This document shows positions 63,295 through 64,000 of a DNA stretch of 64,000 nt, one piece after another. Source of the DNA: Flagellimonas marinaquae. GTDB lineage: Bacteria; Bacteroidota; Bacteroidia; Flavobacteriales; Flavobacteriaceae. The DNA lies in assembly GCF_003992675.1 (NCBI RefSeq), contig NZ_RZMZ01000007.1, positions 186,001-250,000 on the forward strand. The letters are read 5' to 3'. The position numbers and the translations under genes are program-made. The notes beneath the pieces are model-generated. The model was not told where the DNA came from. It was given only the letters and a program-made list of their open reading frames with translations, and ran no database searches. Position 1 is the first letter of the stretch. Every line of letters starts with the position of its first letter.

Positions 63295-63326
63295 AAAGGG
63301 CGGCCATTGTGCCGCCCTTTTTTTTT
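63295..63326 (+). terminator. Rho-independent terminator after M1 peptidase
   Basis: AAAGGGCGGC (63295-63304), 6-nt loop, GCCGCCCTTT (63311-63320) gives a perfect 10-bp stem, then six T. Confidence 0.92.
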
Positions 63327-63343
63327 GAATTATCATGAAAAAC

Positions 63344-63372
63344 TGTCCCCTCGAGGGGACCTTAGGGGTGTT
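63344..63372. repeat. Left copy of 29-bp inverted repeat flanking the DUF559 ORF
   Basis: It contains the perfect 16-bp palindrome GTCCCCTCGAGGGGAC and a tail TTAGGGGTGTT. It is the inverse of 63801-63829 with 2 mismatches. Confidence 0.9.
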
Positions 63373-63411
63373 ACTTGACCAATTATTCTTGATATATTTA
63401 GGTTACTTCGT

Positions 63412-64000
63412 ATGAAAAACAAGATTATTCCATATAACCCTGCGTTAAAAGAATTTGCAAGGCAACTGCGTAAAAACAGTACGCTCTCCGAGGTTCTTCT
63501 TTGGGAAAAACTAAAGCAACGTTCAATGGGGGTTCAATTTCATCGACAGGTTCCTTTACTTGAGTATATTGTTGATTTTTATTGCCATGAATTACAGCTT
63601 GCCATAGAAATTGACGGGGTATCGCACGATTTCAAATATGACAAGGACCAACAAAGAGAGCATCAACTAGAAAAAGTCGGCGTACATTTGCTCAGGTTGC
63701 AGGATCAGGAAGTTAAAAACAATATGTTCAGTGTTTTGATGAGCATAAAAGAAACGATAGCTCAAATGCAATACAAAGACCCTAATTTGAATGCAGAAAA
63801 AACACCCCTAAAGTCCCCTCAAGGGGACAATTCCTTCCCCAAAAAGGAAAAGCTCACCAATAGAACCGTTTTTGAAAAGCTTTTTTCCGAAGGAAAAACT
63901 TTGCGAGCGTTTCCCATCAAACTGATATATCTCAACACATCTTTTACCGATAACGTGCCCATAAAAGTGGCCGTGGTCGCCCCAAAGAAAAAATTTAAAA
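63412..64000 (+). CDS. rnpA: DUF559 nuclease domain reading in frame into RNase P protein RnpA (partial at window edge)
   Basis: The frame from ATG 63412 is open to the window edge (196 codons). Residues about 1-120 are a DUF559/Vsr-like PD-(D/E)XK domain (LRKNSTLSEVLLWEKLKQRS; FHRQVPLLEYIVDFYC; LAIEIDGVSHD). A linker TPLKSPQGDNS, encoded by the right inverted repeat, leads straight into FPKKEKLTNRTVFEKLFSEG and VPIKVAVVAPKKKFK, the start of RnpA. No ATG lies just before FPKKEKL; inner starts would be ATG 63766 or TTG 63787. So either a fusion protein is made or RnpA starts inside. DUF559 function is unproven; RnpA assists tRNA 5' processing. Confidence 0.85.
   Translation, partial: MKNKIIPYNPALKEFARQLRKNSTLSEVLLWEKLKQRSMGVQFHRQVPLLEYIVDFYCHELQLAIEIDGVSHDFKYDKDQQREHQLEKVGVHLLRLQDQEVKNNMFSVLMSIKETIAQMQYKDPNLNAEKTPLKSPQGDNSFPKKEKLTNRTVFEKLFSEGKTLRAFPIKLIYLNTSFTDNVPIKVAVVAPKKKFK
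63801..63829. repeat. Right copy of 29-bp inverted repeat, inside the DUF559-RnpA frame
   Basis: It is the inverse of 63344-63372 (27 of 29) and holds the near-palindrome GTCCCCTCAAGGGGAC. It encodes the linker between the nuclease and RnpA parts. Confidence 0.9.

Follow-up and report, generated by a model that had tools for sequence, protein, structure and literature searches.

An in-frame DUF559 nuclease gene with palindromic ends at rnpA of Flagellimonas marinaquae, a probable member of a homing-type family of selfish elements

Introduction

How does a nuclease gene come to run, without a stop codon, into the gene for the RNase P protein, and is such an arrangement peculiar to a single locus? 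The question is raised by the end of a 64,000-nucleotide stretch of the Flagellimonas marinaquae genome (contig NZ_RZMZ01000007.1, positions 186,001–250,000), which is referred to in its entirety as the window. An initial annotation of this DNA proposed that a DUF559 nuclease gene and its flanking repeats form a mobile cassette that landed at the 5′ end of rnpA, creating an unusual fusion or a new leader. Homing endonucleases, as described in an excerpt of one account, invade and persist in conserved genes by riding self-splicing introns or inteins (PMC3943268). The comparisons presented below suggest that the feature in the window is probably a member of a homing-type family of selfish elements that needs neither. 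The unit consists of a DUF559 gene of ~330 bp (Vsr/EDxHD fold) between inverted GC-rich palindromic repeats, ~450–490 bp in total.

The Nuclease Frame Open into rnpA

At positions 63344–64000 of the window a DUF559 nuclease ORF continues in a single frame, with no intervening stop, into rnpA. The nuclease ORF begins with an ATG and spans 63412–63834 (+), and the frame from ATG 63412 to its own stop beyond the window encodes 265 amino acids (locus L007), the last residue of RnpA falling at window position 64206 (G000:C7:250206). Profile searches of the window identify DUF559 (PF04480; E 2.5e-28, 98.6 bits against a gathering cut-off of 20.6) at 63433–63759 (+), with the residues invariant in alignment A1 present (E20, D48, E59, D61, H65, D72, and others). 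The beginning of RnpA is matched as well (PF00825; E 1.5e-4), at 22.2 bits where the cut-off is 22.3; only half of RnpA lies inside the window, and its body (FPKKEKL...; 63835–64000, +) runs on past it. The two matches and the 265-residue frame bear out the initial annotation that nuclease and RnpA share one frame. A frameshift or assembly error at the junction, which would have undone that claim, is very unlikely, as rnpA is matched in all 71 genomes of the genus and an open nuclease fusion of the same type is found in nine of them. The predicted structure of the RnpA fusion is uninformative (pLDDT 45.6).

The nuclease gene lies between two terminal repeats, and DUF559 is the sole frame listed between them on the + strand. 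The left repeat (63344–63372, +) is REP-like, with a C-arm/G-arm/G-arm plan (TGTCCCCT-CG-AGGGGAC-CTT-AGGGGTGTT), and contains a perfect 16-bp palindrome (GTCCCCTCGAGGGGAC; 63345–63360, +). The right repeat (63801–63829, −) is the left copy inverted, identical to it at 27 of 29 bases and translated in frame as TPLKSPQGDN; shuffles of the window yielded no match equal to this 29-bp inverted pair. The inverted repeat within the junction, as first described, is therefore upheld. The 16-bp palindrome ascribed to each copy is perfect on the left, while on the right the two central bases are unpaired (stem of 7, loop TG). Just outside the element lies a terminator-like GC hairpin with a T-run of the upstream gene (63299–63328, +; by eye), and a similar hairpin, again judged by eye, precedes rnpA in two genomes with no trace of the unit (G002 and G033). 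Two patterns searched for the 29-bp repeat in the F. marinaquae genome recovered the window pair alone, and dispersal of the repeat within this genome is thereby ruled out.

Nuclease Domain and Fold

The structure predicted for the nuclease (pLDDT 86.9) has its best fold match in 3hrl, an endonuclease-like protein of Neisseria gonorrhoeae, followed by the catalytic domain of I-Bth0305I (3r3p; Foldseek E 2.6e-5, TM 0.70); the match to Vsr is weaker. Profile searches matched 3hrl at E 2.4e-31 and 3r3p at E 3.3e-7. The window nuclease is thus predicted to share the fold of the EDxHD homing endonuclease I-Bth0305I. Thirteen residues are invariant in 43 domains (E20, W24, F36, I46, D48, F49, E59, D61, G62, H65, D72, L79, and G83). 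One study, in a section that deals with genes bearing inteins, counts a DUF559 gene among the EDxHD homing endonucleases (PMC9403480).

The rnpA Locus across the Genus

Examination of 42 of the 71 rnpA loci shows a range of states. An intact unit is present at nine; a broken nuclease with one or more repeats at four (G032, G015, G056, and G068); a scar alone at 13, in the form of the translated right repeat (TPLKSPQGD-like) within an N-terminal extension of RnpA; degenerate remnants, recognized by eye, at four (G007, G048, G028, and G043); and an unsure state at three (G050, G046, and G004). The remaining nine have no trace of the unit that could be found. Had the same fusion been conserved without repeats in all relatives, the cassette reading would have failed; the mixture of intact, decayed, scarred and apparently empty loci points the other way, and supports the reading of the nuclease unit as a mobile cassette, situated at the 5′ end of rnpA, to which it gives a new leader. 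On a host tree built from neighboring genes and the RnpA core, intact copies stand beside relatives with scars or with none, the four genomes with degenerate remnants being labeled "none" on this tree because those remnants were recognized only afterwards. At two of the rnpA loci with a broken nuclease (L098 and L099, in G056 and G015) a second, different palindrome (~GCCTGCCTGCCGCAGGCAGG) is nested in the left repeat.

Synonymous divergence of the nuclease can be set beside that of RnpA. Between G025 and G012 nuclease dS is 0.014 and RnpA dS 0.687, and in the five further pairs that fall within one or other main group the nuclease value is also the lower (0.03–0.53 vs. 0.17–1.11). The nine pairs between the two groups show no clear difference (0.78–1.01 vs. 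0.94–1.30), and the 21 pairs that involve G044, G053, or G026 lie too far apart for a judgment. The insertion at rnpA looks old in the genus and not like a fresh arrival.

The unit immediately precedes the gene body; RnpA would be made either as a fusion or from a start inside the nuclease. In eight of the nine fusions the 15 codons that lead up to the RnpA body include no in-frame ATG, GTG, or TTG; the ninth (G053) has a GTG there. The nearest ATG of the window copy (63766–63768, +) lies in the 3′ end of the nuclease, 23 codons before the body, and is a possible internal start for RnpA. In scar genomes RnpA opens with an ATG at the matching place, and in six of them (G037, G042, G036, G017, G001, and G057) an ATG 23–26 codons before the body is the sole in-frame start. 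Since eight fusions and six scar genomes lack another in-frame start near the body, the original start of rnpA is probably gone, and one supplied by the element is used in its place. In G007 (L039) and G048 (L033) RnpA may, following an internal deletion, begin in the region where the nuclease itself starts (upstream peptides MKNNMVPDTPK, and KNDNDPYNFK beside MKNKIIPYN).

A Class of In-frame Units in Many Genes

The arrangement is not confined to rnpA. The F. marinaquae genome holds two more DUF559 units of this kind, one in recG and one stand-alone with a palindrome behind it, and the suggested search of this genome for further copies therefore yielded units and, under the two patterns, no additional copy of the 29-bp repeat. 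A fourth DUF559 match, which is partial, we take to be Vsr-like. Beyond this genome, in-frame units are found in rnpA, recG, leuS, ileS, metH (two sites), hemD, hisD, hsdR, and the gene of a PALP enzyme, and Pfam identifies the hisD, ileS, hsdR, hemD, metH, and PALP hosts. What had seemed a lone oddity is thus one case of a widespread class, which occupies ten or more sites spread over nine genes. The metH units lie before the B12-binding domain and at a second site, those of hemD at the N-terminus, and those of hisD at the C-terminus. Outside the Flavobacteriaceae, hsdR inserts occur in two Candidatus Scalindua records and in one Brocadiaceae bacterium (confirmed by Pfam for the latter). A DUF559 match (E ≤ 1e-20) is present in 142 of the 397 family genomes drawn. 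The 101 units analyzed are those fetched, picked partly for long open frames, so that their division into 69 in host frames and 32 "alone" is no estimate of frequency; two of the latter (L038 and L099) are decayed rnpA copies.

Units of the rnpA type also occur elsewhere. At five loci, four in Winogradskyella and one in a Flavobacteriaceae MAG, such a unit is fused ahead of the PALP enzyme (Pfam was run on three of the five), and stand-alone units with the same repeat are found in Flavobacterium sp. LMO8 (L354) and Flavobacteria bacterium BAL38 (L380). Of the 30 uninterrupted metH loci fetched, 29 have a clean linker of 11 residues; G063, and also the separately fetched G013, have a variant of 16 residues, and the unit is present in G047 and G019. 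The leuS insertion region is presumably CP1. Four genomes have leuS inserts with dS of 0.26–0.60 against 1.03–1.50 for LeuS, and that of G047 is more diverged than its own LeuS. The same leuS loop (L208–L219, L176, L179, and L184) also holds other REP-like families in frame with no nuclease, reading LDAERSRSDQ, VTSSAVEK, and MLKQVQHDD; it looks like a generally tolerant spot and a sink for palindromic elements.

In the inserts examined, including those of recG, leuS, and metH, the frame stays open throughout. An intein is rejected on this ground and on size, as the recG insert has 150 codons, 108 of them DUF559, and thus no room for a splicing domain; this sets it apart from the Thermosynechococcus DUF559/EDxHD endonuclease, likewise a DUF559 gene, which the section of PMC9403480 mentioned above reports with inteins. 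A known RNA intron is rejected as well, Rfam at the gathering score yielding a tRNA only at 10 loci. At the recG and metH junctions no target-site duplication was seen by eye. Searches with the recG-type domain matched 39 of 72,556 plasmid records, all below 60% identity. Carriage by phages is rejected, as two of 50,697 phage records gave a match, both below 60%.

A tree of 101 domains requires 11 changes of host-site label, where the minimum is 9 and the mean after shuffling 61.4, with none of 200 shuffles as low. The tree groups nuclease lineages by insertion site, with the qualification that it rests on 111 columns with modest support and that leuS, metH, and stand-alone units do not each form one clade. 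Some placements cross sites: two copies in a single metH ORF of G285 are each other's nearest relatives (SH-aLRT 87), the units of ileS group with those of recG, and the units of hisD and hemD are placed among some of those of leuS. Together with the PALP and stand-alone units of the rnpA type, these placements suggest that the unit may at times have jumped to new sites.

Occupied, Empty, and Remnant Sites in recG

The clearest contrasts between occupied and empty sites come from recG. In F. marinaquae (G000) the unit lies in frame within a recG ORF of 881 aa. The insert, present in six of the 71 genus genomes, measures 450 nt where clean loci have 15 nt. Across the 71 genomes recG is uninterrupted in 59, split in nine, partial in one, and without a match in two (G036 and G048). 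The clean site reads SKLW-HKNQTPP-H or near it in 30 of 30 fetched uninterrupted loci, and in G034, G035, G058, G024, G056, and G007 it holds 30–51 nt that resemble remnants of unit ends. Sister species have clean empty sites at both recG and metH. Presence of the recG insert amounts to six changes on a host tree of 42 genomes.

Flanks of recG were examined in 39 of the 71 genomes. The insert is present in G041 and absent from its sister G040; the two recG genes are 98.5% identical beyond 460 nt of the site, with 90-base windows at 89–100%. Differences occupy 48 of 920 sites within 460 nt of the insert vs. 19 of 1273 beyond (p 9e-7), the 460-nt cut having been picked after the differences were viewed; a cut at 300 nt gives p 1e-4. 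Such a divergent patch is what a co-conversion tract would look like, and a donor for it was looked for and not found. Four sister pairs without a full insert (G018–G031, G002–G033, G007–G056, and G015–G068) show no gradient in recG. A weak gradient is seen in G042–G032 (insert vs. clean) and in G034–G058 (both with remnants), and no tract in G030–G002 (insert vs. clean).

The inserts are in several pairs far more alike than the genes that carry them. Insert and flank dS are 0.23 and 1.69 for G041–G046, 0.29 and 4.1 for G041–G062, 0.25 and 0.88 for G062–G046, 0.63 and 1.41 for G000–G046, and 0.77 and 1.70 for G000–G062. In G000–G041 the two are equal (0.49 and 0.48), and synonymous sites of the insert are therefore not frozen. 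Pairs with G042 have similar insert and flank dS, and most pairs with G030 are not computable. Since in five pairs the inserts differ far less than the genes that house them, and sister genomes have clean sites, horizontal movement of the unit into one recG codon is strongly suggested. The behavior that would be expected of homing, namely a site occupied or empty in close relatives and an insert closer than its flanks, is found in five contrast pairs at recG and again at leuS in four genomes and in one clear rnpA pair.

Ordinary interspecies recombination of host-gene alleles, carrying an inert insert along with no need for nuclease action, would likewise yield a low insert dS and a divergent patch at the site. 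We regard it as highly improbable, as the G041 patch is centered on the insert, the four sister pairs without a full insert have none, and inserts with a lower dS than their hosts are seen repeatedly, at recG, at leuS, and in one rnpA pair.

The recG inserts are under purifying selection (dN/dS 0.03–0.14; 12 of 15 pairs computable). The same values could be read as domestication, in which the nuclease domain would serve the host protein in repair, defense, or regulation and be kept for that service. Such a reading would also accommodate the intact set of invariant residues in inserted copies and the occurrence of DUF559 within a restriction enzyme (HsdR) of two phyla. The patchy presence of units beside clean sisters, their decay to scars at rnpA and recG, the unrelated functions of the hosts, and the signs of horizontal spread of the insert make it improbable.

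Terminal Repeats and Their Dispersal

The ends of the units are in many cases palindromic. GC-rich hairpins (stem ≥6) lie within 120 nt on both sides of 56 of the 101 units, as against 1.0% of shuffles and none of 205 control windows; no unit of metH (0/10), ileS (0/2), or hisD (0/2) has them on both sides. The inverted match of left and right ends exceeds the 95th percentile of controls (150 ORFs, from which DUF559 ORFs had not been removed) in 44 of 101 units, with the best in rnpA and hsdR, and beats all 10 of the unit's own shuffles in 47 of 101. The idea that every group has matched ends is rejected for recG, where the inverted score is 16.6 and that of the shuffles 16.8. Over all units the direct end match scores 23.3 and the inverted 26.5, as palindromes would give. 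The ends follow a plan of one C-rich and two G-rich arms; the palindrome takes the outermost position in units of rnpA, hemD, and hsdR, and the innermost in those of recG and leuS (by eye, among the ends listed). In the frames seen, unit ends read as linkers rich in Pro, Gly, and Ser.

The likeliest rival holds that the palindromes are the mobile part, moved in trans by a RAYT or another transposase, with the DUF559 gene as a passenger. Copies of the rnpA-type repeat are indeed dispersed: 28 of the 71 genus genomes carry it, and 26 of these have copies away from rnpA as well, with up to 16 copies per genome where a control pattern has none. The 43 repeat loci fetched away from rnpA (three of them fetched twice) have no DUF559 within ~1–1.5 kb and are for this reason regarded as solo copies. 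The passenger reading would also fit the REP-like inserts without a nuclease at the leuS loop and the proposal, in part of a study of other bacteria, that RAYTs move REPs (PMC3733652). Repeat type, on the other hand, tracks nuclease type: the rnpA-type repeat stands on both flanks of 36 of the 67 distinct nucleases that are ≥60% identical to that of the window and of none of the 30 that are less so, and it bounds related units in other genera as well. Among 397 family genomes the repeat is present in 22 of 31 with the nuclease (E ≤ 1e-40) vs. 20 of 366 without (Fisher p 9e-18), the latter being again as a passenger would allow. At E ≤ 1e-30 it is present in 23 of 47 vs. 19 of 350 (p 2e-13), so that the nuclease is missing from 19 of the 42 genomes with the repeat, and the repeat from 24 of the 47 with the nuclease; these p values ignore kinship, and 1e-40 is one of the two cuts tried. 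Arrival at a single exact codon, accompanied by divergent flanks, resembles homing, and the recG nuclease is, as noted, under purifying selection. On balance the passenger reading is unlikely.

Several arrangements of the repeat deserve description. Tandem arrays occur at G404:C1:1788778-1790472, G204:C1:218817-219267, and G415:C1:217767-219136, regularly spaced at ~188, 141, and 174 bases, respectively, and those of G404 and G415 surround a close relative of the nuclease. Two complete units (repeat, nuclease, inverted repeat) adjoin at G414:C42:527478-528537. A repeat copy lies ~3.4–7.5 kb from metH in nine genomes (G001, G007, G015, G032, G034, G035, G040, G042, and G068), perhaps as one old insertion.

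A Homing-type Interpretation and Known Systems

At the level of sequence, units of this type lie in frame at the same codons of several housekeeping genes and leave palindromic scars as they decay. As a homing-type selfish element, the unit would spread by its nuclease cutting the empty allele, with the break repaired from the occupied one. Through its terminal repeats the unit may on rare occasions jump to new genes, and the repeats may spread as solo copies; the host protein would tolerate the insert because the repeats, in the frames seen, read as linkers rich in Pro, Gly, and Ser.

The unit shares features with several known systems. I-Bth0305I, a long multi-domain protein listed among the group I intron homing endonucleases in an excerpt of PMC3943268, is alike in the fold of the catalytic domain, and the DUF559 unit resembles homing endonucleases in its spread to one site in conserved genes; unlike I-Bth0305I, it has no intron or intein that was found, keeps the frame, and has palindromic ends. 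Rickettsia palindromic elements, portrayed in a portion of PMC10969869 as ~150 bp long with a conserved peptide ORF, are likewise selfish palindromic DNA in frame in protein genes, whereas DUF559 units encode a nuclease domain and are found repeatedly at the same codons. The REPtrons and REPINs of REP/RAYT systems are likewise composed of a gene between REP palindromes, with more REPs elsewhere; in the sections of PMC3733652 that describe them, the RAYT is an HUH-domain tyrosine transposase whose REPs carry a GTAG tag. The DUF559 unit has the corresponding inverted flanks (at the 36 of 67 above) and repeats elsewhere (in the 26 of 71 genomes). It is no REPtron by its gene, which is DUF559 and not an HUH tyrosine transposase, and it differs in its repeat, its few copies, and its in-frame insertion. 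A literature search confined to open-licence papers found no description of a palindrome-bounded DUF559 element.

Implications

A nuclease of homing-endonuclease fold is found here unspliced in conserved genes, recurring at fixed codons. A broader proposal, which we advance tentatively, is that such units form a separate mobile class, with a homing nuclease, REP-like termini that serve both as DNA ends and as linkers, and no splicing. Such a class may drive solo palindromes across the Bacteroidota and be a RAYT-independent origin of REPs. The units described here in any case offer DUF559 proteins a candidate function, and REP-like palindromes a possible source outside RAYT systems that can be tested. 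LeuRS, IleRS, RecG, MetH, and RnpA would provide a natural set of tolerated domain insertions, and the presence of these units would account for the odd extensions and insertions in these enzymes.
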